From Epinephelus fuscoguttatus (lineage: Eukaryota > Chordata > Actinopteri > Perciformes > Serranidae), in assembly GCF_011397635.1 (NCBI RefSeq), contig NC_064774.1:124001-188000 (forward strand): DNA of 64,000 nt, written 5' to 3'. The position numbers were made by a program, and so were the translations under genes. Below the pieces are notes generated by a model. The model was not told the DNA's origin, searched no databases, and saw nothing but the letters and a program-made list of their open reading frames with translations. This document shows positions 3,244 through 58,868 of this stretch, one piece after another (the stretch's first letter is position 1; each line of letters begins with the position of its first letter).

Positions 3244-3476
3244 GCTGGTGGTGATCTTACGCTTTGGGGAGGCTGAGCAGAAAAAGATGAAAGCTATTAA
3301 TCCACTGATGGTGACAAAAGACCTAGGCAGCTGGGGGAGATCAAAAAGTGCTACCTGATGGGAATCTCCTGGTGTCATGCTCAGATGAGGGACAAGTAGA
3401 AAAACCTAAGGGTATGAAAGAAGTAGTAGGTTTGGTCTGAGTCTACTGCACTGTAGGTAGTGATCACTATCCCGTA

Positions 3477-5216
3477 TTGTGCACGCTAGGTGGTCAGGTG
3501 GAGGGGGGTGCAAGGGGTGGTAACACTCGGTGGGTGTTAGGTAAGGCGGACTGGAGTTTATTTAAGATGACTAGTGAAGAGATTTTAGGTAAGATTGACT
3601 TATTGGTGGATGTTGATGAGATAAATAAGGGGTTCTCATCGGGGGTTATAGAGGCAGCAGAGAGAGCGATACCTCAGAGTAGGGGTGGGAGGGAGAGGAA
3701 GCTGGTCCCATGGTGGTCTGAGGAGTGTCAGCAGGCGGTGAAGGAAAGGAATAGGCCATTTAGGTTAGTTAAGAAGACACTTTCCCAACAGCACCTGTTC
3801 CAGTATAAAAGAGCCCAGGCACTTCTGAGGAAGATAGTGAGGAGGGCAAAGAGAGCAGCCTGGAGGGGGTATTGTAGTGGAATAGGGCGGACAGCGCCAG
3901 TGGGAGAAGTGTGGGGGATGATAAAGAAGATGGGGGGAGACAGGAGAGAATGGGGATACCCAGTGTTGGTGTGTGGTGAAGAGACAGCAATATCAGATGG
4001 GGAGAAGGCAGAACTTATGGCCAGATCTTTCTCTAAGGCGCATGATCTGAAGAATCTGTCTGAAGAAGGAATAAGGAGGAGGGAAGCTACCTTGAGTCTC
4101 CATCCGGGTGTGGTAGGTAGGAAGGAGAGGGGAGGGGATATTCTTGATGAACCTTTTACGTTAGCAGAGATGGTAAGAGCTATAAATAAGTCCAAGCCCA
4201 CTTCTCCTGGCAAAGATAGGGTGTGTTATAAAATGCTGCAAAACCTGGGGGATGAGGCTTTGGGGGCGTTGTTGTATATCTACAACAGAGTGTGGGAGGA
4301 GGGGAAACTGCCGCAGGGGTGGAAAGAAGCAGTGGTAGTGCCGGTCCAGAAACCAGGCAAGGACCCTACATTACCATCTAGCTACAGACCAATAGCTTTG
4401 ACTTCTAATATTTGCAAAGTGATGGAGAGGATGGTGACAGACAGGTTATATTATGTGCTGGAGAGGAGAGGTGTACTGGCGGGATATCAGTGTGGTTTTA
4501 GGAGAGGAAGAAACACCATGGTTGCTGTGATTAGACTAGAGGATGAGGTAAGGAGAGCCCAGGCTAACAAGGAGTCAGTGATAGCTGTATTTTTTGATAT
4601 AGAGAAGGCTTATGACATGATGTGGAGAGAAGGTCTGCTGATAAAATTGCACAAGTTGGGAATAGGTGGGAGAATGTTTAATTGGATTAGAGATTTTTTA
4701 ACTGACAGAAAGATTCAGGTTCGGATTGGCTCTGTTTTATCCAGTCAGTTCCAGATCAGTAACGGGACTCCTCAGGGGAGTGTCATCAGTCCTCTTCTCT
4801 TTACTATCATGATTAATGATATTTTTGCTGGGGTACAGGGGGACATAGGGAGGTCCCTATTTGCTGACGATGGGGCTCTCTGGAAAAGGGGGAGATGTTT
4901 GGAAAATGGGGTAAGGAAGGTGCAGGAAGCAATAGATGAAGTGGAGCAGTGGGGGTTGAAATGGGGCTGCAGGTTCTCAGTGGAGAAGACGCAGACTGTG
5001 TTCTTCATGAGGAAGAAGGTGGAGGATGGTCTCAGGCTCAGGTTATATGGGCAAGAGCTGGAGAGGGTTGAGTCTTTTAAGTATTTGGGGGTGGTATTTG
5101 ATGCTCGTCTGACATGGGAAAGCCATGTTAAGAGGATAGGAGAAAGGGGAAAAAAGGTGTTGAATGTGATGAGGTGCTTAGCAGGTAGGAGTTGGGGGCT
5201 AGTTGTGAGGCTCTGA
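3477..5216 (+). pseudogene. LINE reverse transcriptase ORF (5' part)
   Basis: This frame of about 579 codons carries the non-LTR RT core: SYRPIALTSNICKVMERM (motif 1), GYQCGFRRGRNT, AVFFDIEKAYDMMW (motif 3), NGTPQGSVISPLLF (motif 4) and the catalytic box FADDGALW, then FKYLGVVFDARLTW in the thumb. All catalytic aspartates are visible. Downstream protein continues in a different frame at 5192, so a frameshift near 5190-5215 severs the thumb. The upstream edge still shows the endonuclease tail motif SDHYPV. The family is normally one ORF2 polypeptide; here it is split into three frames. Confidence 0.85.
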
Positions 5217-6588
5217 GGGCAGTGTATGTGTCACTGGTGAGGTCGGTGCTGGACTATTGCTGTTTGGTGTATGGGTTGGCGGCCCAGACACACCTCAGGA
5301 AGCTGGATGCGCTTCAGGCCCAGGCTTTAAGGATCTGCAGTGGGGCATTTAAGTCTTCGTCAGTATCTGCTCTGCAAGTGGCCATGAATGAAATGCCACT
5401 GGAAATAAGAAGGGGACAGCTGATGGCTAATTACTGATCTAGTTTGCAGGGACATGGAGACTCTCACCCTACTATGGGGTGCTAAGGGACTGCTGGGAGA
5501 ATGGAAAGAGAAAGAAGAACTTTGGCCGAGTAGGTAAGGATGTGGCAGGAGAGTTTGGAGTAGGGGGGTTACGGTTATGCCCATCGGTGGTGTACCTAGT
5601 CGTGGCTCCCTGGATGTTGGAGTGGCCTGTAGTGGATTGGCGGCTGTTGGAGGAGAAAAAGACTGGAAGAGGGGTGGTGGTAGGGGTCTTTAAGAGTCTC
5701 ACTCGGGTTTCTTATAGGGATTTTACTCTGATATTTACAGATGGATCGAAGGACATGGAGACCGAGGTGACAGGGTTTGGAGTAGTTGTTCCAGAGAAGG
5801 GGGTGTCACTTAACAGGAGGACTACGAACAGACTGAGTGTGTACACTGTGGAGATGGTAGCTGTGCTGATGGCGCTCAGATGGGCTGAGCATGCTCGGGT
5901 GGAGAGCGTGTTAATATGCTGTGACTCGGCTTCAGTGTTAACTAGCTTAAGGTCCTTCCATTCTGGAAGCAGGCAGGGCTTGCTATATGAAATTTTGATG
6001 TGTGTGACTCGGTGTGTGAGTCAGGGTAGTAGTGTGAGATTTCTGTGGGTTCCTGCACATGTAGGAGTGGTGGGCAATGAAGAGGCAGATGCGTTAGCTA
6101 AGAGGGCTCTAAAGAAGGAGAGAGTAGATATGCGTATTAGGATTAGTAAAGCAGAGGCAAAGGGGATAATTTGGGAAAAGGCAAATCAGTTATGGCAGGC
6201 TAGATGGGATAAGGAAGAGAAGGGTCGGCACTTCTACCAAGTGCAGCGTAGTGTTAAAGGGCAGGGGGTCAGGAGTGGCAGCAGGAGGGATGAAATAGGA
6301 TGGATGAGGCTAAGGTTGGGACACTGTGTGCTGAATAAAACACTGAAGATGATAGGGAGGCACCAGTCAGGGTTATGTGAGGGGTGTGGGGAGGAGGAAG
6401 AATCAGTGGAACATGTATTGCTGTGGTGTAGGGCATATGAAGAACATAGGAGAAAGATGAAGGACAAGATGAGAAGTGTGGGGATCCTGGGATTTGAGCT
6501 AAAGGATATACTCAGTGAGGGCAGTGGGGCTAAATTGAAGATGGTGGTGGAGTTTCTGAAGAGCATAGGGGTGTATGACAGAATATAA
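5192..6588 (+). pseudogene. LINE ORF2 C-terminal part with RNase H, two frames
   Basis: The segment 5192-5437 continues the RT thumb (RSVLDYCCLVYGLA, LDALQAQALRICSGAF) in one frame and stops at TGA. From 5479 to 6588 a different frame encodes RNase H: IFTDGSK (first catalytic Asp), TVEMVAVLMALRWA (Glu), CCDSASVL (Asp) and VPAHVGVVGNEEADALAK (His and Asp). A CCHC knuckle, CEGCGEEEESVEHVLLWC, sits near the end. RNase H residues look intact, so inactivation is by frameshift. It matches the I-superfamily architecture. Confidence 0.85.
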
Positions 6589-6998: not shown

Positions 6999-7191
6999 AT
7001 GTCGAACGTCCAAATGCTGAGATCGTTTGTGAAGCAGCGACTAACTCCGGCTGATGGAGAGATATTTGGGCTGTTTGAAAGAACGATAGCAGAGTACGAG
7101 GAGGGACATTGTCGATCAAAAGAGGAGAACGAGCGACAACGGAAACTACTGGACGCTGTTTTCAACCCTCAGCTTCGGTTACACAGAGCAG
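6999..7191 (+). CDS. ZNF-1 exon 1: teleost zinc-finger N-terminal domain
   Basis: This 193-nt exon encodes 64 residues from MSNVQMLRSF to LRLHRA plus one base, ending at a CAG|GTTTGT donor. The partner acceptor at 12818-12819 restores Asp (G|AC) and reads DVQQLL, the usual teleost junction. The sequence is a helical, charged domain (RTIAEYEE, SKEENERQRKLLDAV) found at the start of very many fish C2H2 proteins; I believe this is what has been called FiNZ, but I am not certain. Its role is probably protein contact or dimerisation. Compared with the other copies it has changes such as TPADGEI for TAAAEEI and GHCRS for ELCRS. The true ATG is 6999, since an upstream GTG at 6993 is not needed. Confidence 0.85.
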
Positions 7192-7282
7192 GTTTGTTCA
7201 TTAAACATTACAAGTTCATTATTAATAATATAACTGCAGCTTTGTTCAATAAATATTCAGTCTGTCGACGATTTAAAGCCAC

Positions 7283-8198
7283 GTTAGCTTCTGTGGTGCC
7301 GTTAGCTTCTGTGGTGCCGTTAGCCTCTGTGGTGTCGTTAGCTTCTCTGGTGTCGTTAGCTTCTCTGGTGTCGTTAGCTTCTGTGGCGTCGTTAGCTTCT
7401 GTGGCGTCGTTAGCTTCTCTGGTGTCGTTAGCTTCTGTGGTGCCGTTAGCTTCTGTGGTGCCGTTAGCTTCTCTGGTATTGTTAGCTTCTCTGGCGTCAT
7501 TAGCTTCTTGGGTATTGTTAGCGTCTCTGGTGTCGTTAGCTTCTGTGGTGTCGTTAGCTTCTGTGGTGCCGTTAGCTTCTGTGGTGCCGTTAGCTTCTCT
7601 GGCGTCATTAGCTTCTTGGGTATTGTTAGCGTCTCTGGTGTCGTTAGCTTCTCTGGCGTCATTAGCTTCTTGGGTATTGTTAGCGTCTCTGGTGTCGTTA
7701 GCTTCTGTGGTGTCGTTAGCTTCTGTGGTGTCGTTAGCTTCTGTGGTGCCGTTAGCTTCTGTGGTGCCGTTAGCTTCTCTGGCGTCATTAGCTTCTTGGG
7801 TATTGTTAGCGTCTCTGGTGCCGTTAGCTTCTCTGGCGTCATTAGCTTCTTGGGTATTGTTAGCTTCTCTGGTGCCGTTAGCTTCTCTGGTGTTGTTAGC
7901 TTCTCTGGCGTCATTAGCTTTTCGGGTATTGTTAGCTTCTCTGGTGTCGTTAGATGGTCTGGTGTCTTTAGCGTCTCTGGTGCCGTTAGCTTCTCTGGTG
8001 CCGTTAGCTTCTCTGGTGCCGTTAGCTTTTTGGTGTCGTTAGCTTCTCTGGTGTCGTTAGCTTCTCTGGTGTCGTTAGCTTCTCTGGCGCCGTTAGCTTC
8101 TCTGGTGCCGTTAGCTTCTCTGGTGTCGTTAGCTTCTGTGGTGTCGTTAGCTTCTGTGGTGTCGTTAGCTTCTCTGATGCCGTTAGCTTCTGTGGTAG
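7283..8198 (+). repeat. 18-bp intronic minisatellite, about 50 units (ZNF-1)
   Basis: Tandem units of consensus gttagcttctctggtgcc, with t/g and c/t variants, begin 92 bp after the exon 1 donor. Because 18 is a multiple of three and the unit lacks stops, several frames on both strands stay open. One unit at about 8020-8040 is 17 bp, which breaks the phase. The same array occurs in the same place in ZNF-2 and ZNF-4 and as a remnant at 15778. Confidence 0.95.
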
Positions 8199-9748: not shown

Positions 9749-10695
9749 TTATTTAGGTCCGAATGGATTGTTATTCCTAAGTATTTGGTACCACTTGAAT
9801 TTGAGGTTTCCTTTTGAGTCTTCTGTTGGTTGTTTACCTATACATATAGACTCACTTTTACTTTCGTTAATTTTATATCCTGAATGTTCACTATATTCTT
9901 TTATTGTTTTAATAAGTTCTTGAAGTGAAGTTTCAGGTGTAGTCAGATAAAGTATAATGATATACATAAAGTGCTAGTTTGACATTCCTGACCTATAAGC
10001 AAACCCTTTATTTCATCTTGCTGTCTGATTGCTTCTGCAAGAGGTTCCATACATAGATTAAAAATTGATGCGGACAGTGGATCTCCTTGTCTGGTTCCTT
10101 TATGTATATGAAAGTGTCTTGATAGGGTGCCATTAACTCTTACTTGAGCCACTGGGTTTTTGTACATTGATTTTAACCATGAAATAAAGGTTGGATGGAA
10201 ACCAAATGCTTTAAATGTTGTAAAGATATATGGCCACAGGACTCTATCGAAAGCTTTTTCAGCATCAAGTGTCAGCAAAAGCAAGTCTTTTCTATTTTTT
10301 TGAGAATCAATCACATTTAAAGTGCGTCTTATATTATCAGATAAAAATCTATTGGAGATAAAACCAGACTGATCTGTATCTATTATATCTGGGAGGATGT
10401 CTTTAAGCCTGTTTGCTAAAATAGATGTTAATATTTTTTGATGTGTGTTCAGTAAAGATATTGGTCTACAGGAAGATCTATCCGTTTTATCCTTCCCTTC
10501 TTTATATATGACTGTGATTATGGATGAGTTCCATGTTGAAGCCCAATTCCCTGATTCTAGGGCAAAGTTATAGGCTTTTTGTAATACAGGTGTCAGGAAT
10601 TCTCCAAACTCCTGATAGAATTCATTAGTGTACCCATCATCTCCTGGGGCCTTTCCTTTTTTTAGCTTTCTAATTTGTTGTTTTCTTTCATCCAT
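9749..10695 (-). pseudogene. L1-type reverse transcriptase remnant
   Basis: 10695-9943 encodes KGKAPGDDGYTNEFYQEF, RPISLLNTHQKILTSILA, TLDAEKAFDRVLWPY and KGTRQGDPLSASIFNLCMEP, the canonical RT blocks. The frame is lost at about 9943-9967 exactly where the catalytic YADD box should be; downstream protein (IILYLTTPETSLQELIK, SGYKINESKSE) resumes in another frame. The active-site motif itself is therefore destroyed. It is recognisable but non-functional. Confidence 0.85.
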
Positions 10696-11117
10696 TGTTA
10701 CTGGTTTAATAAGGTTAGCATTTTTGGATATTGAAACTTGTTTTAATTTAAGTTTGTCAAGATATATTTCTGTTCTTCTTGTATCTATACTTTAAGCATC
10801 ATCCCTGTGTAATTCCTCATAGTATTTTGCAAATGCTTCTGCAATTTCAGTTTTGTCTGTTAGTATTTCTGATTTATCATCCTTTAACTTAGTAATATAT
10901 GATTTACTTTTGTGCTTCTTGAGCCTATAAGCTAAAATTTTCATTGATCTTGGCCCCTCATCGTAATACTCTTGTTTTATAAATATTAATAATTTTTCCA
11001 CTTCTTCTGTCCGCAGTCTAATTCAATGCATTTTTTCTTCAGCTGTTTATTTCATTTCAGATCGCGTGATTTTTATGTTTGTCTTCTCATACTTTTATTT
11101 GTAATTTGAGTTCCATC

Positions 11118-11987
11118 TTAATTTGTTCCCGTTGTCTTTACTGATGAGTACTTCATTATTTCTCCCCTCAAGACAGCTTTCGCCCCCTCCCATAAAATTA
11201 CATTGTTAATTTCCTCCGTGTCATTTAGTTTAAAATATTCAGTAAAGGTTTTTTTGACAGTCTCTTTTAAACTTCCGTTTTGTAAGAGGGAATTATTCAT
11301 CCTCCATACATATTCCTTTACTTGAGTTTAATCTGACTGTTAAGGTGACCGTAGCGTGATCTGATAGCGTTATTGTTCCGATAGTGCATTTTTTAATAGT
11401 TGCTATGTCTTTCTTAAACACGAAGAAGTAGTCCAATCTATTATATGTTGAATGTCTATTAGAATAATATGTATAATTATTTGTTCTTGGATGCAGTGTT
11501 CTCCATACATCCAGCATGCCTAACTCTCTACATGCTTTCCTGAAGATATTTGCATTTTTTTCTGCTTCATGTTTATGTCCTGCCGTTGAATCTATAGAAT
11601 TTAAAACAAGATTCCAGTCACCTCCAATAATAATTATTCCTTTTCCATGTGTCACTATTAAATCTAGAATTTGGTTCATAAGATCAGTGCCTTCGTCTGG
11701 CGGATAGTTAATATTTATAAGTGTTATTTCAATGTTTTCTATTCTGCCCATCAGTAAAACAAACCTTCCTTCCTTATCCATTATACTATTTATCTTCTGA
11801 AATTATATGGTTTTTTTATAATGATCACTACGCCTCTCCTTGATGAGCTATATGAGGAGAAAAAAACTTCAGCGTTTGCGATTTTTCCCAACTTCTTATG
11901 TTCCTCTTGTGTTAAATGTGTTTCTTGGAGAAACAGTTTATCTCCCTTTTCTTTTTTCAATTGTTGTAGAATCTTTTTTCTCTCCAT
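11118..11987 (-). pseudogene. L1-type endonuclease remnant
   Basis: Two minus-strand frames form an APE-like endonuclease: 11987-11790 gives GDKLFLQETHLTQEEH with the catalytic Glu, and 11781-11293 gives GKGIIIIGGDWNLVLN, RLDYFFVFK and TLSDHATVTL with the Asp/Asn, Asp and SDH residues. The SDH triad is intact, but a frameshift near 11785 separates the halves. 11300-11118 holds part of the linker toward RT. Confidence 0.8.
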
Positions 11988-12819: not shown

Positions 12820-15083
12820 ACGTCCAGCAGCTGTTGGTGGTTAAAGAAGAGGTTCCCCCTGAGCAGCAGGAGTGGAGCTCCAGTGTGGACCAGGAGGACC
12901 CAGAGCCTCCACACATGAAAGAGGACCAGGAGGACCCAGAGCCCCCACACATGAAAGAGGACCAGGAGGACCCAGAGCCTCCACACATTAAAGAGGACCA
13001 GGAGGACCCAGAGCCTCCACACATTAAAGAGGAACAGGAGGACCCAGAGCCTCCACACATTAAAGAGGAACAGGAGGACCCAGAGCCTCCACACATTAAA
13101 GAGGACCAGGAGGACCCAGAGCCCCCACACATTAAAGAGGAACAGGAGGACCCAGAACCCCCACACATTAAAGAGGAACAGGAGGACCCAGAGCCCCCAC
13201 ACATTAAAGAGGACCAGGAGGACCCAGAGCCCCCACACATTAAAGAGGAACAGGAGGACCCAGAACCCCCACACATTAAAGAGGAACAGGAGGACCCAGA
13301 GCCCCCACACATTAAAGAGGACCAGGAGGACCCAGAGCCTCCACACATTAAAGAGGAACAGGAGGAACTCTGGATCAGTCAGGAGGGAGAGCAGCTTCAA
13401 GGGCTGGAGGAGGATGATATCATCAAGTTCCTTTTCACTCCTGTCCCTGTGAAGAGTGAAGATGATGAAGAGAAACCTCAGTCCTCACAGCTTCATCAAA
13501 GACACACTGAACAGATGGAAACTGGAGCTGATGGAGAGGACTGTGGAGAACCAGAACCAGCCAGGACCTCAGATCCAGATACACAGATACAACCTGAGAC
13601 TAATGACAGTGGTGATGATGATGATTGGACAGAGACCAGAGAACCTCAGTCAGGCTTAAACTCTCTTAGAAATGATGAAGACCCTGTTAGTGACTTGACG
13701 TGTAGTGCTGATGAGAAACAATTTAGCTGCTCTGAGTGTGGGAAAAGATTTTGTAGAAGTGGAGTTCTGAAAAGACACATGAGAACTCACACAGGAGAAA
13801 AACCATATAGCTGCTCTGAGTGTGGGAAAAGATTTTCTTTGTCAGGTCATCTAAAGGCACACATGAGAACTCATTCAGGAGAAAGACCATTTAGCTGCTC
13901 TGAGTGTGGGAAAAGATTTTCTCAGTCGAGTGCTCTGAAAGCACACATGATAACTCACACAGGAGAAAAACCATATAGCTGCTCTGAGTGTGGGAAAAGA
14001 TTTTGTAGAAGTGGAGTTTTGAAAACACACATGAGAACTCACACAGGAGAAAAACCATATAGCTGCTCTGAGTGTGGGAAAAAATTTTCTTGGTCAGGTC
14101 ATCTAAAGGCACACATGGGAACTCATTCAGGAGAAAGACCATTTAGCTGCTCTGAGTGTGAGAAAAGATTTTCTCAGTCGAGTGCTCTGAAGGCACACAT
14201 GATAACTCACACAGGAGAAAAACCATATAGCTGCTCTGAGTGTGGGAAAAGATTTTCTCTGTCAAATTCTCTGAAGATACACATGAAAACTCATACAGGA
14301 GAAAAACCGTTTAGCTGCTCTGAGTGTGGGAAAAGATTTTCTCGAACAGGTCAAGTGAAGACACACATGAGATTTCATACAGGTGAAAAACCATTTACCT
14401 GCTCTGAGTGTGGCAAAAGATTTTCTCAGTCAGGTGCTCTGAAGACACACATGAGATTTCATACAGGAGAAAAACCATTTAGCTGCTCTGAGTGCAGTAA
14501 AAGATTTTCTCAGTCAGGTGCTCTGAAGGCACACATGAGATATCATACAGGAGAAAAACCATTTAGCTGCTCTGAGTGTGGGAAAAAATTTTATCAGTCA
14601 TGGTGTCTGAAGACACACATGAGAGTTCATACAGGAGAAAAACCATTTAGCTGCTCTGAGTGTGGGAAAATGTTTTCTTTGGCAGGTCATCTGAAGAGAC
14701 ACATGAGATCTCATGCTGGAGAAAAACCATTTAGCTGCTCTGAGTGCGGTAAAAAATTTTCAGAGTCAGGTACTTTGAAGGCACACATAAGAACTCATGC
14801 TGGAGAAAGACCATTTAGCTGCTCTGAGTGTGGGAAAAGATTTACTCGGTCAGGTGATCTGAAGGCACACATGAGAACTCATTCAGGAGAAAAACCATTT
14901 ACCTGCTCTAAGTGTGGGAAAGGATTTTCTCAAACAGGATATCTGAGAAGACACATGTCAACTCATACAGGAGAAAAACCATTTAGCTGCTCTGAATGTG
15001 GGAAAGGATTTTCTCGAACAGGTCATCTGAAGAGACACATGACAACTCATACAGTAGTAATACCATATAGCTGCTCTGAGTGA
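12820..15083 (+). CDS. ZNF-1 exon 2: C2H2 zinc-finger protein, 16 fingers
   Basis: Joined to 6999-7191 this gives 818 residues. Order: [19 protein letters not shown] hinge; 13 tandem 12-residue acidic units (12894-13361); [19 protein letters not shown]; a Ser/Glu/Asp-rich linker with CGEPEPARTSDPDTQ; then 16 complete C2H2 fingers (13722-15065) with TGEKP-type linkers at exact 84-bp spacing. Fingers 1-3 and 4-6 are near copies. The frame ends at TGA 15081-15083, where the second Cys codon of a 17th finger should be TGT; decayed fingers continue downstream. It is probably a nuclear sequence-specific DNA-binding regulator, annotated in other fishes as gastrula zinc finger protein-like. Expression is untested; truncation leaves the array usable. 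Confidence 0.88.
12894..13361 (+). repeat. 36-bp coding minisatellite, 13 units (ZNF-1)
   Basis: Thirteen in-frame copies encode EDPEPPHIKEEQ with M/I and E/D variants. After the first units, the E/D pattern runs E,E,D repeatedly, indicating expansion of a three-unit (108-bp) higher-order block. Every unit retains HxKE(E/D), matching the psi-K-x-E/D sumoylation consensus for the I-containing copies. Confidence 0.95.
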
Positions 15084-15552
<469 letters not shown>

Positions 15553-15574: not shown

Positions 15575-15686
15575 ATAACGATAGCAGAGTATGAGGAGGA
15601 ACTTTGTCGATGAAAAGAGGAGAACGAGCGACAACGGAAACTACTGGACGCTGTTTTCAACCCTCAGCTTCGGTTACACAGAGCAG
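15575..15686 (+). pseudogene. Truncated ZNF exon 1 (fifth, dead copy)
   Basis: This matches the second half of the shared exon 1 (TIAEYEEELCR, then KEENERQRKLLDAVFNPQL) and keeps the CAG|GTTTGT donor. The first half is missing and a TCA codon has become TGA (CGATGA near 15609). The usual intron sequence and a short run of the 18-bp repeat follow. Confidence 0.85.
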
Positions 15687-15777
15687 GTTTGTTCATTAAA
15701 CATTACAAGTTCATTATTAATAATATAACTGCAGCTTTGTTCAATAAATATTTAGTCTGTCGACGTTTAAAAGCCAC

Positions 15778-15867
15778 GTTAGCTTCTCTGGTGTCGTTAG
15801 CTTCTCTGGTGTCATTAGGTTCTCTGTTGGCGTTAGCTTCTGTGGTGTCCTTAGCTTCTCTGGTGCC
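15778..15867 (+). repeat. 18-bp minisatellite remnant, 5 units
   Basis: Five diverged units of the same repeat sit at the same distance from the dead exon 1. One more unit and a half appears at 17304-17325 inside a duplicated segment. Confidence 0.85.
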
Positions 15868-19723: not shown

Positions 19724-20085
19724 GCTTGATCCCGCTGCTCCTCGGTGAAGTGAATTTCCCCACTCCTCCTGTCATTGAGCGCTGTCACCGTTCATCCTTC
19801 ATCAAGCTTAACTCCAGAGCCGGACCAAGGCCGATCCTGGTTTAGTTCCTCCACTTCCAGGACAAGATAAAGATTTTGAAGCTCTCCAGGGAAAAGAAGG
19901 AGCTCGTTTTTAATGGAACACGAGTTCTTATCTACCCGGACTTCAGCGCTGCTCTTGTCCAGAAACATCGGCAGTTTGGACCATAGAAGAAGAAGCTGCA
20001 AGATCTGGATTTGACATACTCTATGCTCTTTCCCTGTACGCTGAAGGTGGTCCATGATGGTAAGACAAAACTCTCTCTCGTTCCT
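19339..20085 (+). pseudogene. L1-type ORF1 fragment, copy 2 with RRM and CTD
   Basis: Coiled coil and RRM as in copy 1, then VIERCHRSSFIKLNSRAGPR and FLHFQDKIKILKLSREKK, IYPDFSAALVQKH and KLQDLDLTYSMLFPCTL, which is the C-terminal domain of L1 ORF1p. Stops at about 19843 and 19984 interrupt it. ORF1p is an RNA-binding trimeric chaperone of LINE RNPs; this copy is dead. Around 20085 it passes directly into ZNF linker sequence, in an open frame. Confidence 0.8.
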
Positions 20086-20592
20086 CAGTCCTCACAGCTT
20101 CATCAAAGACACACTGAACAGGTGGAAACAGAAACTGATGGAGAGGACTGTGGAGGATCAGAACCAGCCAGGAACTCAGATCCAGATACACATTTACAAC
20201 CTGAGACACATGACAAGACTGGAGAGTCTTCTGAATCAGAGATTGATGAGACTGATGACAGTGATGATTGGACAGAGACCAGAGAACCTCAGTCAGGCTT
20301 AAACTCTCTTAGAAATGATGAAGACCTTTTAGTGATTTGGAATATAGTGTTGATGAGAAACCATTTAGCTGCTCTGAGTGTGGGAAAAGAGATGGAAACA
20401 GAGGCTGATGGAGAGGACTGTGGAGGACCAGAACCAGCCAGGAACTCCGATCCAGATACACGTTTACAACCTGAGACTGACGACAAGACTGGAGAGTCTT
20501 CTGAACCTGAGACTGATGATAGTGATGATGATTGGAAAGAGACCAGAGAACCTCAGTCATGTTTTTGCTGTGAACTTGTAGCTTCCTGTCAG
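20086..20592 (+). pseudogene. Decayed ZNF linker, duplicated, no fingers
   Basis: Two successive copies of the acidic linker (VETETDGEDCGGSEPARNS and [19 protein letters not shown], each ending in a TREPQS motif) are separated by the last trace of a finger start ([10 protein letters not shown]). The open frame continues from L1 ORF1 sequence at 20011. No complete finger remains. Its 3' half matches 15350-15552, so it is the exon 2 relic of the dead ZNF copy. Confidence 0.75.
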
Positions 20593-21015
20593 TTGTTAGC
20601 AGTTAGCAGAAGGTTAAACTGTTACAGCGGCGCCTTTTCAGTGTCAGGGTTTATTCACTGTAAGCTGGTAACAAACTTACGCCTCTCCAGTTCATGTATT
20701 TATAGTATTTGCCAGTCGCATTGGAGCTCCATGGTCACAAAATGTGACTGCGAGTCACAGTTTGCATCTTTCCTGGTCACACTGTCGTTTAAATCATTAA
20801 GTTCAACTCTTACAGCTGCACTGCTCAACATGGATGTCATGGAAACATGAACAAATTTAAGTTGCTTTAAAATGCTTGTATTTTCATTTTACATATATTC
20901 ACATCATCTCTACATCATAAGGCTGATACTGTATGATTTTTATATTACCATGTTTTATTTTTGATTGTTGTTTGTTGGGCTTAGGTTTGACTCATACGTC
21001 ACAGCATGCAGAGCT

Positions 21016-23992: not shown

Positions 23993-24185
23993 ATGTCTAA
24001 AGTCCAAATGCTGAGATCGTTGGTGAAGCAGCGACTAACTGCGGCTGCTGAAGAGATATTTGGGCTGGTTGAAAGAACGATAGCAGAGTACGAGGAGGAA
24101 CTTTGTCGATCAAAAGAGGAGAACGAGCGACAACGGAAACTACTGGACGCTGTTTTCAACCCTCAGCTTCGGTTACACAGAGCAG
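23993..24185 (+). CDS. ZNF-2 exon 1: teleost zinc-finger N-terminal domain
   Basis: 193 nt, MSKVQMLRSLVKQRLTAAAE to LRLHRA, ending in CAG|GTTTGT. It differs from the consensus by Val for Phe in GLVERT. Phase 1 and sequence match the acceptor at 26331-26333. The ATG at 23993 follows the conserved taaagtgtgaac leader, which supports this start over the GTG six bases upstream. Confidence 0.88.
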
Positions 24186-24275
24186 GTTTGTTCATTAAAC
24201 ATTACAAGTTCATTATTAATAATATAACTGCAGCTTTGTTCAATAAATATTCAGTCTGTCGACGATTAAAGCCAC

Positions 24276-24949
24276 GTTAGCTTCTGTGGTGTCGTTAGCT
24301 TCTCTGGTGTCGTTAGCTTCTGTGGTGCCATTAGCTTCTGTGGTGTCGTTAGCTTCTGTGGTGCCGTTAGCTTCTGTGGTGCCATTAGCTTCTGTGGTGT
24401 CATTAGCTTCTGTGGTGCCGTTAGCTTCTTGTAGTGTCGTTAGCTTCTCTGGTGCCGTTAGCTTCTCTGGTGTCGTTAGCTTCTGTGGTGCCGTTAGCTT
24501 CTGTGGTGCCGTTAGCTTCTGTGGTGCCATTAGCTTCTGTGGTGCCGTTAGCTTCTTGTAGTGCCGTTAGCTTCTCTGGTGCCGTTAGCTTCTCTGGTGT
24601 CGTTAGCTTCTGTGGTGCCGTTAGCTTCTGTGGTGTCGTTAGCTTCTGTGGTGCCGTTAGCTTCTGTGGTGTCGTTAGCTTCTCTGGTGTCGTTAGCTTC
24701 TGTGGTGCCGTTAGCTTCTCTGGTGCCGTTAGCTTCTCTGGTGTCGTTAGCTTCTCTGGTGTCGTTAGCTTCTCTGGTGCCGTTAGCTTCTCTGGTGTCG
24801 TTAGCTTCTCTGGTGCCGTTAGCTTCTGTGGTGCCGTTAGCTTCTCTGGTGTCGTTAGCTTCTGTGGTGTCGTTAGCTTCTCTGGTGTCGTTAGCTTCTC
24901 TGGTGCCGTTAGCTTCTCTGGTGCCGTTAGCTTCTCTGGTGTAGTTAGC
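24276..24949 (+). repeat. 18-bp intronic minisatellite, 37 units (ZNF-2)
   Basis: The same unit as in ZNF-1 begins 91 bp after the donor. Two units (about 24427 and 24550) are 19 bp long with cttgtagtg in place of ctgtggtg. It ends at a final gttagc before tgttacacatgg. Confidence 0.95.
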
Positions 24950-26333: not shown

Positions 26334-27586
26334 ACGTCCAGCAGCTGTTGGTGGTTAAAGAAGAGGTTCCCCCTGAGCAGCAGGAGTGGAGCTCCAGTGT
26401 GGACCAGGAGGACCCAGAGCCTCCACTCATTAAAGAGGAACAGGAGGAACTCTGGATCAGTCAGGAGGGAGAGCAGCTTCAAGGGCTGGAGGAAGCTGAT
26501 ATTCCCGAGTTCCCTTTTACTATTGTCCCTGTGGAGAGTGAAGATGAAGAGGAGGAACCTCAGACCTCACAGCTTCATCAAAGACTCATTGAGCAGATGG
26601 GAACAGATGATGATGGAGAGGACTGTGGAGGACCAGAACCAGCCAGGAACTCAGATCCAGATACACATTTACAGCCTGAGACTGATGACAGTGACGATGA
26701 TTGGACAGAGACCAGAGAACCTCAGTCAGGTTTTAACTTTCTGGAAAGTTATGAAGTCCCCGTAAATGATTCACGTGTCAATTTGAAACCATTTCGCTGC
26801 TCTGAGTGTGGGAGAAGATTTGGTCACAGCGGGAATCTGAAGACACACATGAGGACGCATACAGGAGAGAAACCATTCAGCTGCTCTGTGTGTGGGAAAA
26901 AATTTGCAGAAAGTGGAAATCTGAAGATACACATGAGAATTCATACAGGGGAGAAACCGTTTTGCTGCTCTGAGTGTGGGAAAAGATTTTACCACAAGAC
27001 ACACCTGAAGAGACACATGATCACTCACACAGGGGAAAAACCTTTCAGCTGCCTAGTTTGTAAGAAATCGTTCACACAGAGTGGAAATTTGTACACTCAC
27101 ATGCGAAGCCACACAGATGAAACACCATTTGGCTGCTCTGAGTATGGGAAGAGATTGGGCCCCAGGACACATCTGAAGCAAGACAGCAGCTCTGATACAG
27201 GAGAAAAACCTTTCAGTTGCCCAGCTGAGAAATCTTTTTCAGTGAGTGAACATTTACAGACACACATGATGATCCACACAGCAGAGACACCATTCAGCTG
27301 CAGTGTTTGTGACCAAAGATTCACTTGGCCTCATCAACTCAGAGACCATCAGTGTGATAGTCATCAGTCTGATCGGGCTCGTGAAAGTCGGACTGAGGAG
27401 AAGGGAGAGAGCAGGGAGGGAGCAGAGCCTCCAGCCAGCAGCTCAGCTGAACAGATGGAAACAGAAGCAGACCGAGAGGACTGTGGAGGACCAGAACCAG
27501 CCAGGAGCTCAGATCCAGATACACATTTACAACCTGAGACTGATGACAAGACTGGAGAGTCTTCTGAACTTGAGACTGAACACTGA
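26334..27586 (+). CDS. ZNF-2 exon 2: C2H2 zinc-finger protein, partly degenerate array
   Basis: With exon 1 this encodes 481 residues. Hinge [13 protein letters not shown], a single [12 protein letters not shown] unit, the acidic linker, then fingers from 26792. Fingers 1-4 are intact ([48 protein letters not shown]). Finger 5 reads CSEYGKRL...LKQDSSSD, losing a Cys and both His; finger 6 has a deletion (CPAEKSF); the last, [19 protein letters not shown], is the family's odd C-terminal finger. A second acidic linker with [17 protein letters not shown] follows before TGA. Probably a nuclear DNA-binding protein with four working fingers, or an early pseudogene. Confidence 0.8.
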
Positions 27587-35316: not shown

Positions 35317-35509
35317 ATGTCTAGAGTCCAAATGCTGAGATCGTTGGTGAAGCAGCGACTAACTGCGGCTGCTGAAGAGATATTTGGGCTGTTTGAAAGA
35401 ACGATAGCAGAGTACGAGGAGGAACTTTGTCGATCAAAAGAGGAGAACGAGCGACAACGGAAACTACTGGACGCTGTTTTCAACCCTCAGCTTCGGTTAC
35501 ACAGAGCAG
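35317..35509 (+). CDS. ZNF-3 exon 1: teleost zinc-finger N-terminal domain
   Basis: 193 nt, MSRVQMLRSLVKQRLTAAAE to LRLHRA, with CAG|GTTTGT donor. It matches the family consensus except Arg for Lys at residue 3. The following intron keeps the first 80 bp of family sequence to tctgtcgacgat and then diverges without any 18-bp repeat. The exon lies in the loop of the large inverted repeat. Confidence 0.88.
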
Positions 35510-39254: not shown

Positions 39255-40792
39255 ACGTCCAGCAGCTGTTGGTGGTTAAAGAAGAGGTTCCCCCTGAGCA
39301 GCAGGAGTGGAGCTCCAGTGTGGACCAGGAGGACCCAGAGCCCCCACACATTAAAGAGGACCAGGAGGACCCAGAGCCTCCACTCATTAAAGAGGACCAG
39401 GAGGACCCAGAGCCTCCACACATTAAAGAGGACCAGGAGGACCCAGAGCCTCCACACATTAAAGAGGAACAGGAGGACCCAGAGCCTCCACACATTAAAG
39501 AGGACCAGGAGGACCCAGAGCCTCCACACATTAAAGAGGAACAGGAGGACCCAGAGCCTCCACACATTAAAGAGGAACAGGAGGACCCAGAGCCTCCACA
39601 CATTAAAGAGGAACAGGAGGACCCAGAGCCTCCACACATTAAAGAGGAACAGGAGGAACTCTGGATCAGTCAGGAGGGAGAGCAGCTTCAAGGGCTGGAG
39701 GAGGATGATATCACCAAGTCAATATCCACTCCTGTCCTGAGTGAAGATGATGAAGAGAAACCTCAGTCCTCACAGCTTCATCAAAGACACATTGAACAGA
39801 TGGAAACTGGAGCTGATGGAGAGGACTGTGGAGGACCAGAACCAGCCAGGAACTCAGATCCAGATACACATTTACAACCTGAGACTGATGACCAGACTGG
39901 AGAGTCTTCTGAACCTGAGACTGATGACAGTGATGATTGGACAGAGACCAGAGAATATCAGTTAGGCTTAAAGTCTCTTAAAAATGATGAAGACCCTGTT
40001 AGTGATTCGAAATGTAGTGCTGGTGAGAAACCATTTAGCTGCTCTGAGTGTGGGAAAAAATTTGGTAAAAGTGGAATTCTGAAAGGACACATGAGAACTC
40101 ATACAGGAGAGAAACCATTTCGCTGCTCTGAATGTGGGAAAAGATATGGCCGCAAGCCTGATCTGAAGAGGCACATGCTAACTCACACAGGAGAAAAACC
40201 TTTCAGCTGCTCTGATTGTGAGAAAAAATTCAACACCAAGACAGGTCTGAAGAGACACATGTTGATTCACACAGGAGAGAAACTTTCTACCTGCTCAATT
40301 TGTGAGAAATCTTTTGTACAGATTGGATATCTACAATTACATATGAGAACACACACAGGAGAGAAACCATTTTGCTGCTCTGAGTGTGGGAAAAAATTGC
40401 GCACCAAGACACATCTGAAGCAACACATGAGATCCCATACAGGAGAGAAACCTTTCAGCTGTTCACTTTGTACGAGATCTTTTACACAGAGTGGAAGTTT
40501 ACAGAAACACATGGCCTGCCACACAGGAGAGAAACCATTTAGCTGCTCTGAGTGTGGGAAAAGTTACCCTCGCAAGTACTCTCTTGTTCTTCACATGAAA
40601 ACCCACTCAGGAGAGAAACGTTTCAGCTGCGGTATTTGTGATCATAGATTTACTCACCCCAAATACCTCAGAGACCATAAGTGTGTTGGTCGTCAGTCCT
40701 CACAGCCTGATCGAAGTCAAACTGAGGAGAACAGAGAGGCAGAACCTCCAGCCAGCAGCTCAGCTGAACAGATGGAAAAAGAAGCTGATTGA
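39255..40792 (+). CDS. ZNF-3 exon 2: C2H2 zinc-finger protein, 8 fingers
   Basis: With 35317-35509 this gives 576 residues. Hinge, nine EDPEPPHIKE(E/D)Q units (39329-39652), acidic linker, then fingers from 40034 at 84-bp spacing: KKFGKSGILKGH, KRYGRKPDLKRH, KKFNTKTGLKRH, KSFVQIGYLQLH, KKLRTKTHLKQH, RSFTQSGSLQKH, KSYPRKYSLVLH and a terminal CGICDHRFTHPKYLRDHKC. Seven are canonical; the last is the atypical family end finger. The frame ends at TGA 40790-40792 in EKEAD; the paralogues read GGA (EADGEDCGG) here, so a nonsense change trims the second acidic tail. Likely a functional DNA-binding regulator. Confidence 0.88.
39329..39652 (+). repeat. 36-bp coding minisatellite, 9 units (ZNF-3)
   Basis: Nine in-frame copies of the 12-residue unit; the second has L for H (PPLIKEDQ), the same variant as the single unit of ZNF-2. 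Confidence 0.95.
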
Positions 40793-41155
40793 GAGGACTG
40801 TGGAGGACCAAAACCAGCCAGGAACTCAGATCCAGATACACATTTACAACCTGAGACTGATGACAGGGATGATGACTGGGAGGAGACTAGAGAACCTTTG
40901 TCAGCCTTAAACTCTGAACTATGTTGTATGAGACCTATTACTGTCCAAAAATAGTCAAGTCGCTCAAGAGTGTGTTGAAAGATTTGGCTTTTGGAGACAC
41001 ATGTGGAGTCATACATAGAGAAACCATTTGGTTGCTTGGTTTGTGATAAAGGATTTTCATGGGGGGGGGAATTGGGTTTGTTGCATGAGATTTCATGCAG
41101 GTGAAAAACCTTTGACACAAAGTGACCACGCTGTGACACACATGAGAATCCAGGG
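40793..41155 (+). pseudogene. Decayed ZNF-3 tail
   Basis: The acidic tail ([19 protein letters not shown]) continues in frame after the stop, and traces of three more fingers follow in broken frames (acatgtggagtcatacatag, tgcttggtttgtgataaagg, tgaaaaacctttgacac) with a g-run at 41060-41067. Confidence 0.7.
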
Positions 41156-46018: not shown

Positions 46019-46211
46019 ATGTCTAAAGTCCAAATGCTGAGATCGTTGGTGAAGCAGCGACTAACTGCGGCTGCTGAAGAGATATTTGGGCTGTTTGAAA
46101 GAACGATAGCAGAGTACGAGGAGGAACTTTGTCGATCAAAAGAGGAGAACGAGCGACAACGGAAACTACTGGACGCTGTTTTCAACCCTCAGCCTCAGTT
46201 AAACGGAGCAG
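46019..46211 (+). CDS. ZNF-4 exon 1: teleost zinc-finger N-terminal domain
   Basis: 193 nt, MSKVQMLRSLVKQRLTAAAE with GLFERTIAEYEEELCRS, ending FNPQPQLNGA before CAG|GTTTGT. The last residues (QPQLNG) replace the family QLRLHR. The intron has lost about 47 bp between cattaaacatt and cactctgtcga relative to the others. Phase matches the acceptor at 48212-48214. Confidence 0.88.
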
Positions 46212-46253
46212 GTTTGTTCATTAAACATTCACTCTGTCGATGTTTAAAGCTAC

Positions 46254-47027
46254 GTTACCTTCTCTGGTGTCGTTAGCTTCTCTGGTGCCGTTAGCTTCTC
46301 TGGTGCCGTTAGCTTCTCTGGTGCCGTTAGCTTCTCTGGTGCCGTTAGCTTCTCTGGTGTCGTTAGCTTCTGTGGTGTCGTTAGCTTCTGTGGTGCCGTT
46401 AGCTTCTCTGGTGCCGTTAGCTTCTGTGGTGCCGTTAGCTTCTCTGGTGTCGTTAGCTTCTCTGGTGCTGTTAGCTTCTCTGGTCTCGTTAGCTTCTGTG
46501 GTGCCGTTAGCTTCTCTGGTCTCGTTAGCTTCTGTGGTGCCGTTAGCTTCTCTGGTCTCGTTAGCTTCTGTGGTGCCGTTAGCTTCTCTGGTGCCGTTAG
46601 CTTCTCTGGTGCCGTTAGCTTCTGTGGTGCCGTTAGCTTCTCTGGTGCCGTTAGCTTCTCTGGTGCCGTTAGCTTCTCTGGTGCCGTTAGCTTCTGTGGT
46701 GTCGTTAGCTTCTCTGGTGCCGTTAGCTTCTCTGGTGTCGTTAGCTTCTCTGGTGCTGTTAGCTTCTCTGGTCTCGTTAGCTTCTGTGGTGCCGTTAGCT
46801 TCTCTGGTGCCGTTAGCTTCTCTGGTCTCGTTAGCTTCTGTGGTGCCGTTAGCTTCTCTGGTCTCGTTAGCTTCTGTGGTGCCGTTAGCTTCTCTGGTGC
46901 CGTTAGCTTCTGTGGTGTCGTTAGCTTCTCTGGTGCTGTTAGCTTCTGTGGTGCCGTTAGCTTCTGTGGTGTCGTTAGCTTCTCTGGTGCCGTTAGCTTC
47001 TCTGGTGTCGTTAGCTTCTACATTCCC
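46254..47027 (+). repeat. 18-bp intronic minisatellite, about 42 units (ZNF-4)
   Basis: Uninterrupted 18-bp periodicity from gttaccttctctggtgtc to gttagcttctacattc. Besides the usual variants there is a ctggtctc type recurring with ctgtggtgcc, suggesting local higher-order copying. Confidence 0.95.
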
Positions 47028-48214: not shown

Positions 48215-49122
48215 ACGTCCAGCAGCTGTTGGTGGTTAAAGAAGAGGTTCCCCCTGAGCAGCAGGAGTGGAGCTCCAGTGTGGGCCAGGAGGACCCAGAG
48301 CCTCCACACATTAAAAAAGAAAAGGAGGAACTCTGGATCAGTCAGGAGGGAGAGCAGCTTCAAGGGCTGGAGGAGGATGATATCACCAAGTTCCCATTCA
48401 CTATTGTCCCTGTGAAGAGTGAAGATGATGAAGAGAAACCTCAGATCTCACAACTTCATCAAAGACACACTGAACAGATGGAAACAGAAGTTGAAATAGA
48501 GGACTGGGGAGGACCAGAACCAGCCAGGAACTCAGATCCAGATACACATTTACAACCTGAGACTGATGACAAGCCTGGAGACTCTCTTGAACCCGAAACT
48601 GACATCGATGATGAGTGGAAGAAGACCAGAGAACCTAAGTCAGGTTTAAACTTTATGATACATGATGAAGACCCTGTCAGCGATTGGAGATGTGGTGCTG
48701 GTGAGAAACCATTCAGCTGCTCTGAGTGTGGGAAAAGATTTGGGAAAAGTGGAAATCTGAAGCGACACATGATAACCCACACGGGAGAGAAACCATTCAG
48801 CTGCTCTGTGTGTGGGAAAAGATTTTACCGCAAGACACATCTGCAGGAACACATGCGGTCTCATACAGGAGAAAGACCCTTCAGCTGCCCAATCTGTGAG
48901 AACTCTTTTACACATCGTGGAAATTTACAGAAACACATGATAATCCACACAGGAGAGAAACCGTACAGCTGCTCAGTGTGTGGTAAAAGATTCCCTCGAG
49001 AAGGATACTTAGCTCATCACATGAGAACCCACACAGGAGAGAAACCTTTCTGCTGCAATGTTTGTGACCAAAGATTCACTTGGCTTCACCAACTCAGAAA
49101 CCATCAGTGTGAAACTGTTTAG
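48215..49122 (+). CDS. ZNF-4 exon 2: C2H2 zinc-finger protein, 5 fingers
   Basis: With exon 1 this gives 366 residues, the shortest member. Hinge [13 protein letters not shown], one unit (EDPEPPHIKKEK, in which the acidic residue of the SUMO-like motif is lost), acidic linker with [16 protein letters not shown], then fingers from 48712: KRFGKSGNLKRH, KRFYRKTHLQEH, NSFTHRGNLQKH, KRFPREGYLAHH and terminal [19 protein letters not shown]. The stop TAG at 49120-49122 follows the atypical last finger directly. All four canonical fingers keep their Cys and His, so the protein is plausible as functional. Confidence 0.88.
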
Positions 49123-49960
49123 CTGCTGTAAGTGTGTGGAAAAATTTAGCTGCAAGACACTTCTAAAGAGACGCATTTAAACTCATACAGGAGAAAAAAG
49201 TTTCAGCGGCTCAGTTTGTGTGAAATCATTGAGACAGAGTGGACATTTACACTCATGAAAAACCTCACAGGAGAGAAACCACTTATCTTCTTTGAGTGTG
49301 GGAAGTGATAAGAACCAAGAGAATTCTGAAGCAACACAAAAGATTTCATAGAGAAGAGAAACCTTTTGGCTGCTCAGTTTGTAAAAACTTTTACATAGAG
49401 CAGGGGTTTGCACACACATGATAATCAACACAGGAGAGAAACCCTTCAGCTGCAGTGTTTGTGAACAAAAATTCACTTTGCCTAAACAGCTCAGAATCCA
49501 TCTGTGTGTTGGTTGTCAGTCCTCACAGCCTCATCAAACTCAGCATGGCCTCCAGCCAGCAGCTCAGCTGAGCAGATGGAAACCGAACCAGATGGAGAAG
49601 ACTGTGGAAGACCAGAACCAGCCAGGAACTCAGATCCAGATACACATTTACAACCTGAGACTGATGACAAGGCTGGAGACTTGATTTGGCCGCAAGAGCT
49701 TGAGGACACGTGGATTCATACAGGAGAGAAACCGTTCAGTTGCTCAGTTTGTGATACAGGATTTCCTTGGAAGGAAAAATTTCACTAAATTTCATTTACG
49801 ATAAAACCCTTTTTTGCTGCTCATTTAGTGCGAAACATTTTACACACGTTGTGAAAAACGTAAGAATCCACACAGAGAAGATACTTTTCAGCTCTCAGTT
49901 AATGGTAAAAGTTTTGAAAGCGCTCCAGTCAAAGTTCAAGAAAATCATGTGGAAGATATG
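49123..49960 (+). pseudogene. Decayed ZNF fingers and second linker behind ZNF-4
   Basis: At least five degraded finger units with stops, then an odd end finger (CSVCEQKFTLPKQLRIH) at 49448-49505, a second acidic linker ([17 protein letters not shown]) at 49590-49655 and another broken finger ([17 protein letters not shown]). This is the tail of a longer ancestral array or of a second gene. Confidence 0.75.
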
Positions 49961-57740: not shown

Positions 57741-57931
57741 ATGTTCTGCATAAAACACTTTATTTCATTATTAAATTATTAAAACGTCATATCTCAGGAA
57801 CAGAAGGGGAGACATTTGGCATTTGAGGGTTAATTCAAGTTGGTACAAGTGTTACGGCCTCTTTGTGATCTCTCTGCCTGTTGGTGTGGTTCCTTTACTC
57901 TGTGTCTGTGTTTCCTCTTTGACCCCTCCAG

Positions 57932-58291
57932 GTCTGACTCCACCCACAGCCAGTGTACCTCAGGACGTCTACAAGGCAGAGGAACACAGTAACGTCACAC
58001 TGAAATGGAGCTTTTCTATCGAGACTGACGTGTTTGTTGACTCACTATATATAGACATTATGTATGGGAAATCATTGAGGAGTATTTACCTTTATGACAC
58101 AAGGTTTGAGGCTGGGCTGTACCAAGATGAGCTCTACAGGGGACGAGTGGGGTGTGACCTAGAGCTCGCCAAGACAGGACGGATTGAATGTCTCTTCACT
58201 GATCTGAGTCTCAACGACACAGGCATCTATGTATTTATCGTTGTTGTCAACGAAGACAGTCACACCCACAACTGTGACCTCAGTGTTACAG
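57932..58291 (+). CDS. Ig-like membrane protein, exon 2 (V-like domain)
   Basis: The 360-nt phase 1-1 exon encodes one V-like domain: ASVPQDVYKAEEHSNVTLKW, YIDIMYGKSLRSIYLYD, GRVGCDLELAKTGRIECLF, TDLSLNDTGIYVFIVVV and HNCDLSVT. The NDTGIY segment is the DxGxY hallmark before strand F, but the usual Cys two residues on is Phe, and the strand B position (TLKW) also lacks Cys. Three other Cys are present (GC, EC, NC). N-glycosylation sequons NVT and NDT are visible. The acceptor is cctctttgacccctccag, the donor G|GTGAGC. Probably a fish-specific immune-type surface protein. Confidence 0.75.
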
Positions 58292-58868
58292 GTGAGCTGA
58301 CATCGCTCCTTATTCAGTTAAATAACACATTGTCCATGACAAATTGTGTGTGCCACACAGTCATTAAATGTAGAATGGTATGATCCTGAATATAAAACAG
58401 CCACTTGCAAACAAAATGCCATACATATATAGTTAGATTAAAAATACCTGTTGTTCCTATTCTTATATGAATATTTAAAGTGATCACCACAGCTGTTTGG
58501 TCTCCACCAACTCCCGTGAAAGTATTTGGCTGTTTAGCTACTAAATGCGTCTCTTTCTTTCTTCTTGAGGTACTTGTTCATTACTTGAATATTTCTGTTT
58601 TCTTTAGCTTAATTCTTACACTGCTCTACACTTTGGCTTAGGCTTTTGCATATATGTATATTATTAACATAAAATATGATCAATTAATAAATTACATTAG
58701 TGTATAAAGGAATTCGAATTAGCACCACCTTCACTGGCTGCAATGTTAAATTAATGCTTATATATTATTCATGCATTAATAGTCATAATTTAATATACAA
58801 GTTATTCTTTACTTTGAATTAATGTTTACTGAAGATTGTTGTCTCATATTTGTTTAATCTCTTTGCAG

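Follow-up and report, generated by a model that had tools for sequence, protein, structure and literature searches.

A conserved hinge motif multiplied by a coding repeat suggests a SUMO platform of variable length in fish ZNF proteins

Results

The window, i.e. the whole 64-kb stretch of DNA analyzed here, comprises bases 124,001-188,000 of contig C23 (36.9 Mb) in a genome of 1.05 Gb and 26 contigs, and it harbors four ZNF genes of a single family, ZNF-1 to ZNF-4, all on the plus strand. All four share the same plan, in which a first exon of 64 residues is followed by a second exon that encodes an acidic hinge and then the C2H2 fingers. In ZNF-1, exon 1 (6999..7191) encodes the 64 amino acids MSNVQMLRSFVKQRL...LHRA plus one base and ends at the donor GCAG/GTTTGT, while exon 2 (12820..15083), which starts behind a phase-1 intron at the acceptor TTTCCTGCAG/AC, encodes the acidic hinge and 16 C2H2 stretches as identified by Pfam. 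The corresponding exons are located at 23993-24185 and from 26334 onward in ZNF-2, at 35317..35509 and 39255..40792 (hinge and fingers) in ZNF-3, and at 46019-46211 and from 48215 onward in ZNF-4, and similar splice-like signals, consistent with a phase-1 intron, are present in all four genes. Exons 1 and 2 were paired by their order and their splice signals in genomic DNA alone, and the ends given for exon 2 of ZNF-1 and ZNF-3 are the stops of the open frames. The window paralogues separated recently, given that 80 intronic nt are likewise 97.5% identical, a point that weighs against the argument from conservation (see below). The ZNF-1 hinge contains 107 acidic residues and 50 prolines among its 303 residues, a composition which suggests that it is disordered.

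For exon 1 of ZNF-1 and ZNF-3, Pfam returned nothing above its cut-off. With E values of up to 1 allowed, exon 1 of ZNF-1 yielded one family, which was not KRAB, and that of ZNF-3 none, and KRAB was absent among the 21 families listed for exon 2 of ZNF-2 and among 25 of 36 families listed for exon 2 of ZNF-1; these four products are the scope of the KRAB scan. The best match of exon 1 to a solved structure was weak (E 0.19) and confined to residues 28-50.

The genes are surrounded by further repeats and fragments. Minisatellites with roughly 5-51 copies of an 18-bp unit resembling CGTTAGCTTCTCTGGTGT occupy positions 7282-8196, 15777-15865, 24275-24949 and 46253-47019; in three of the four genes they begin about 40-90 bp 3' of exon 1, one is located downstream of an exon-1 remnant at 15578, and the ZNF-3 intron has none among those listed. 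The frames of the three long ones are open on both strands. Additional hinge-tail fragments, some of them with stops, occur after or between the genes (15336-15521, 19990-20622, 40763-40912 and 49567-49680) and might be what is left of additional members of the family, or else represent a second segment of the tail. As judged by eye, frames at 3441-6588 (plus strand) and 9943-11802 (minus strand) resemble the reverse transcriptase, RNase H and endonuclease of non-LTR retrotransposons, and a frame at 57775-58383 resembles an immunoglobulin-type receptor domain.

Within the hinges, a 36-bp unit encoding 12 residues (EDPEPPHIKEEQ) is repeated head to tail 13 times in ZNF-1 (12894..13361, EDPEPPH[I/M]KE[E/D]Q) and 9 times in ZNF-3 (39329..39652), and is present as a single copy in ZNF-2 (26408..26443) and in ZNF-4 (48289..48324, EDPEPPHIKKEK), all on the plus strand; the unit counts and coordinates of the first-pass annotation of this DNA are thus exact, and its observation of a repeated unit is confirmed. 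At up to 3 mismatches the unit has 24 matches in the window, compared to a maximum of 0 in 100 dinucleotide shuffles, and all unit-bearing reading frames are open and continue into the C2H2 fingers. Chance or a frame artefact is ruled out by these open frames, by the lack of matches in the shuffles and by an excess of the motif over composition-keeping shuffles (see below). In ZNF-1 the unit variants follow the order ABCDDCEFGEFGD, units 7-9 being repeated as units 10-12 in an exact higher-order duplication of 108 bp. The reading of the core as IKEE or IKED, proposed in the first-pass annotation, applies to 11 of the 13 ZNF-1 units, whereas units 1 and 2 read HMKEDQ (MKED); the ZNF-4 copy, described there as altered, does read IKKEK, but its IKKE still fits psi-K-x-E. 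The residue before IKE is L instead of H in one ZNF-3 unit and in the ZNF-2 unit. Two further psi-K-x-E sites flank the array of ZNF-1 on the plus strand: VKEE in the constant hinge (12840..12851), which is without special constraint in the family, and VKSE (13449..13460), which is followed by acidic residues, was not listed in the first-pass annotation, and is present in ZNF-1 and ZNF-4, not in ZNF-2 and ZNF-3.

A query with the hinge gave at least 187 matches in the genome; among the 150 listed, 141 are located on two chromosomes, 89 on C23 (74 of these in its first 1.03 Mb) and 52 on C17, and 9 on five other contigs. Exon 1 yielded at least 150 matches, as did the hinge of a sister family. 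Among the sister-family matches listed, 104 fall beyond the clusters that the window family forms on C17 and C23, namely on C1, C3, C4, C6 (where one gene accounts for two matches), C14, C18, C21 and C24 and once at C23:32.0 Mb. No relatives were found by tblastn in bacterial and archaeal GTDB genomes or in IMG/VR viral contigs. For further analysis we used 80 hinges, the four of the window and 76 from elsewhere, which represent 75 of 128 planned outside regions, the remaining 53 all being on C23. Since the hinge query itself contained the motif and the best 150 of 368 candidates were scored, far-diverged hinges without the motif could be under-sampled in this set. Likewise, the 20 sister-family stretches were chosen by hand for contig spread with a query that held both IKEE and a second site, so that far-diverged members that have lost the sites could be missed.

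Some matches required individual treatment. L001, which is the same gene as ZNF-2 of the window, and a second partial hinge copy in L047 were dropped, and matches starting at query residue 34-35 (C23:485721, 497711 and 502127) were left out. Five hinges missed by the anchors were placed by hand, and the unit of L021 (IKEE) was added after its letters had been read. In-frame second hinge copies in L013, L036 and L038 were left uncounted; of their matches, that in L038 holds IKEEQ, and the other two begin downstream of the unit. Also uncounted was an additional hinge fragment of L003 (C23:577347), which has FREEQ in place of IKEEQ and hence lacks the motif; it consists of a hinge half behind a KPF resembling a zinc-finger linker (KPFREEQEELW), within a 112-residue frame without fingers. 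Double query matches, covering residues 1-131 and then 18 onward with starts about 372-378 bp apart, were obtained at C23:604751, 631743, 649091 and 1017846, and would represent a larger tandem hinge duplication that doubles IKEE and VKSE.

A single unit is present in 64 of the 80 hinges, while the remaining 16 (13 on C23 and three on C20) have 2-15. The arrays on C20 are built from a unit of their own, E[D/N]P[E/G/V]PL[H/Q/N]IKEEQ, and thus the same motif was amplified in a second lineage; in a hinge tree calculated with the unit left out, the C20 genes stand apart from the C23 arrays, so that the two expansions may be independent. Surveyed among paralogues, unit number varies even between near-identical ones: L004, L065 and L063 have 1, 5 and 8 units, respectively, in hinges that are 99-100% identical outside the array over 168 bases compared, indicating that unit number changes faster than sequence. 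The variants within the C23 arrays comprise silent as well as amino-acid changing ones. L067 (C23:70091-73901) contains 15 units, two pairs of which are 9 bp short (as in EDPEAPHIKEDPEAQHIKEDQ) with the motif retained.

These features raise the question of whether the array is a coding minisatellite without a function of its own, that is, a 36-bp repeat in repeat-rich surroundings that grows and shrinks neutrally within a disordered spacer hinge provided the frame stays open, and in which SUMO-like sites have been multiplied by accident. We consider this a possibility of some standing, if clearly a minority one. It agrees with the 1, 5 and 8 units in otherwise near-identical hinges, with the exact internal 108-bp duplication in ZNF-1, with the concentration of 13 of the 16 array genes read on C23 and 3 on C20, with the unrelated 18-bp minisatellites that three out of four window genes carry in their introns, and with the mixture of silent and amino-acid changing variants in the C23 arrays. 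However, it leaves unexplained why the motif is retained as a single copy in divergent members and in the sister family. This objection spares copy number, for which the same explanation can still hold: copy number is probably for the most part a by-product of repeat instability tolerated by selection rather than a finely tuned setting, and while it may be tuned, neutral repeat turnover accounts for it equally well.

A psi-K-x-E/D motif is present in all 154 units counted in the 80 hinges if M is allowed at psi, comprising 98 IKEE, 46 IKED, five MKED, three IKKE, one VKEE and the IKEE of L021; 103 of the 154 fit the strict form [VIL]KxE. Hinges with a single unit have on average 2.8 [VIL]Kx[ED] sites vs 0.23 in composition-keeping shuffles (n=64), and in 57 of these 64 the observed count was reached in at most 5 of 500 shuffles; as the hinges are homologous, this reflects one ancestral state and not 64 independent ones, just as array copies, being duplicates, are not independent motifs. 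The arrays alone also say little about selection on the lysine, since its codon is invariant in them (76 of 76 AAA in C23), with neither silent nor amino-acid changes.

More informative are changes across the tree of the 80 hinges. Within the unit, none of 34 nonsynonymous events breaks the motif, compared to 6.4 expected from mutational opportunity (P about 0.0009, this and the following values coming from several post-hoc tests that were chosen after the data had been seen; every tree-based and column-based test on the motifs is reported here). The same applies to a wider block including the slow neighboring segment (0 of 46 events, 4.8 expected, P 0.006) and to the whole hinge (0 of 351, 10.5 expected, P 0.00002), whereas two control lysines outside the motifs in these hinges are altered as often as expected or more often (6 of 55 events with 4.3 expected, and 16 of 58 with 6.1 expected). 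Thus, the Lys and Glu codons do not drift like the rest of the unit; such drift is what the first-pass annotation had named as evidence against its proposal. Tested by itself against its unit, the motif lysine lies at the border of significance (0 events, 2.9 expected, P 0.05). Constraint on VKSE is weak (6 of 70 events break it, 12.2 expected, P 0.03). VVKEE, which the first-pass annotation had listed as a further site of the constant hinge, is present, yet shows no particular conservation (broken by 14 of 55 events, 12.0 expected, P 0.8); together with its retention in 5 of 10 divergent hinges, this argues against VVKEE being part of the conserved signal.

Compared column by column, the nonsynonymous/synonymous ratio is 0.23 at the four IKEE positions; it is 0.54 across the remainder of the unit and 0.75 in the 66 columns that belong to none of the three motifs. 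Among 20,000 random column sets, 156 are as low as IKEE and 236 as low as its K and E, while VKEE (18128) and VKSE (10247) are ordinary; the three core lysines are not unusual (5611), and the three core acidic positions gave 1356. Among 14 hinges that are less than 90% identical to each other, IKEE is present in all 14, VKSE in 12, and VKEE in 5 of the 10 that are ungapped at that position; two control lysines are kept as K in 11 (with two R and one gap) and 9 of the 14. All 20 hinges sampled from the sister family contain IKEE, and 19 of the 20 have an additional [LV]K[QE]E, for which the window family lacks a counterpart at that position.

Part of this conservation may belong to a larger segment, as the adjoining hinge block is slow and the remainder of the unit is also constrained (0.54). 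The block EDPEPPxIKEExEEL might act as a peptide-binding or structural segment, e.g. a helix that docks a corepressor in the way KRAB docks on TRIM28, with the lysine being kept for binding and not for modification. The conservation of the unit and the adjoining segment as a whole and a counterpart in most of the 20 sister-family stretches (xIKEExEExCxSQEGEQL) are in line with such a role; nevertheless, the neighboring ELW block, which is the second half of the segment, has been lost in seven array genes, and all 43 units of these genes retain psi-K-x-E. Moreover, the substitutions that occur in the motif, namely I, V or M at psi, E or K at x, and E or D at the last position, are those that a SUMO motif permits. 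We regard a docking segment as doubtful. The simpler notion that IKEE is conserved merely by hitch-hiking with the ELW block is countered by the same seven genes and by the result for the wider block (P 0.006).

The motif also resembles known SUMO acceptor sites in its context. An acidic residue is located at position +5 from the lysine in 142 of the 154 units, as in the acidic-extended type (NDSM / acidic +5), and at least two acidic residues are located at positions +3 to +8 in 145. Proline stands on both sides of the motif, with at most 4 and at most 3 residues intervening, as in synergy control (SC) motifs, and with glycine uncounted, in 74 of 90 array units vs 0 of 64 single units. This difference is due to tandem copying, which places the proline of the next unit close behind the motif, and flanking of the synergy control type is thus found in arrays only. 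An acidic residue at +5 has been proposed to aid SUMO attachment (PMC1386686), the SC motifs of nuclear receptors have been described as SUMO motifs with flanking prolines or glycines (PMC3554661), and the SUMO site K388 of the progesterone receptor reads IKEE (PMC3373386). For SUMO-only lysines in human data, the enrichment is about 9-fold for IKxE and about 21-fold for IKxEP (PMC13213312); the latter figure does not apply to the 12-residue array units, in which the proline is at +6 and not directly behind the E. According to the same source, numerous proteins that do not undergo SUMOylation likewise contain psi-K-x-E (PMC13213312). In the open full-text literature, we found no paper with the hinge peptides, and none whose title or abstract beginning deals with the amplification of SUMO motifs in fish ZNF genes; the word SUMO is absent from the main text of the two closest papers on fish ZNF genes (PMC10547256, PMC11603059).

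Discussion

Overall, the interpretation of the first-pass annotation, according to which ZNF-1 and ZNF-3 are poly-SUMO platforms of tunable repression strength, is partly supported. Units, their conservation, the rapid change in copy number and the flanking by proline are direct observations. As judged from sequence, they suggest that SUMO could attach to these ZNF proteins along a stretch whose length is adjustable. Our preferred reading, to which we assign a probability of roughly 0.55, is that an old, selectively kept psi-K-x-E motif of the hinge, most likely a SUMO acceptor, was multiplied by unequal exchange in some lineages.

It might be proposed that this motif, positioned in the acidic hinge between the 64-residue N-terminal exon and the DNA-binding C2H2 array, provides a lysine that is a probable SUMO acceptor, and that UBC9 would read I-K-E-E/D together with the acidic residue at +5. 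SUMO attached there may then recruit corepressors bearing a SIM to wherever the fingers bind, and SUMO sites in the hinge itself would shorten the path that leads through KRAB and TRIM28. In one C23 and one C20 lineage, the 36-bp unit has been multiplied to 2-15 copies per protein among the hinges read, probably by unequal exchange of the minisatellite type, and most internal copies thereby become proline-flanked and synergy-control-like. SUMO attachment, recruitment of corepressors and dependence on dose are what we infer from these features.

Alternatively, the hinge could be an acidic degron, in which multiple SUMO sites recruit SUMO-targeted ubiquitin ligases, so that more units would lead to less protein. 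Multi- or poly-SUMOylation can indeed recruit ligases of the RNF4 type (PMC12630355), and the ZNF-1 hinge, of whose 303 residues 107 are acidic and 50 are prolines, is in line with such a role; we nevertheless think that this is quite improbable. Returning to the reading of a conserved SUMO acceptor, its most far-reaching form would be that in ray-finned fish the ZNF proteins themselves are the SUMO platform: their hinge lysines, from two or three to fifteen or more, would be SUMOylated and recruit silencers of the SetDB1 type directly to the target DNA, and the coding minisatellite would let each paralogue change its silencing dose in very short evolutionary time. In this extended form we regard the idea as speculative and rather unlikely.

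The findings bear on how large fish ZNF families act without KRAB and TRIM28. A conserved motif of the SUMO type, in a family with at least 187 matches and in its sister family, which occurs naturally in steps from 1 to 15, constitutes a ready-made dose series. Some of its steps stand in near-identical backgrounds, and the series could be used to address both SUMO load as a function of unit number and repression as a function of load. What appears to be new here, by sequence criteria, is that a SUMO-type motif of a known kind is amplified in tandem by a coding repeat in ZNF hinges.

Among known systems, cyprinid FiNZ genes are similar in that they form a very large C2H2 family of fish with a subtelomeric cluster and a glutamate-rich N-terminal part, and in that a separate N-terminal exon is followed by a finger exon (PMC10547256), a likeness in architecture only that extends to all four window genes. 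In contrast, the FiNZ domain is described as comprising 28 residues and being unique to cyprinids (PMC10547256), which by description sets it apart from the 64-residue exon 1 and the acidic hinge of the window family. Its authors state that recruitment of silencing complexes by the FiNZ domain is not yet known (PMC10547256). With KRAB-ZNF proteins and TRIM28, the family shares a lineage-specific C2H2 expansion with an N-terminal effector part. AutoSUMOylated TRIM28 recruits SetDB1 through SUMO/SIM contacts (PMC7915335). Unlike KRAB-ZNF proteins, the window family is without KRAB among the Pfam families listed for two of four exon-1 and two of four exon-2 products. Ray-finned fish are reported to be devoid of TRIM28 and KRAB-ZNFs, and TRIM33 together with KRAB-like ZNFs has been proposed to take their place (PMC11603059). 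The closest counterpart of the motif itself is the SC/SUMO motif of nuclear receptors (GR, PR with K388 in IKEE, and Nurr1 with K91), which is also a short psi-K-x-E with prolines or a glycine nearby and located outside the DNA-binding domain (PMC3373386, PMC3554661). While only one psi-K-x-E site is depicted for PR (PMC3373386), the window family has up to 15 contiguous copies of predicted sites, and in its arrays, as distinct from the SC motif of the receptors, the second proline is provided by the junctions of a 36-bp coding repeat.
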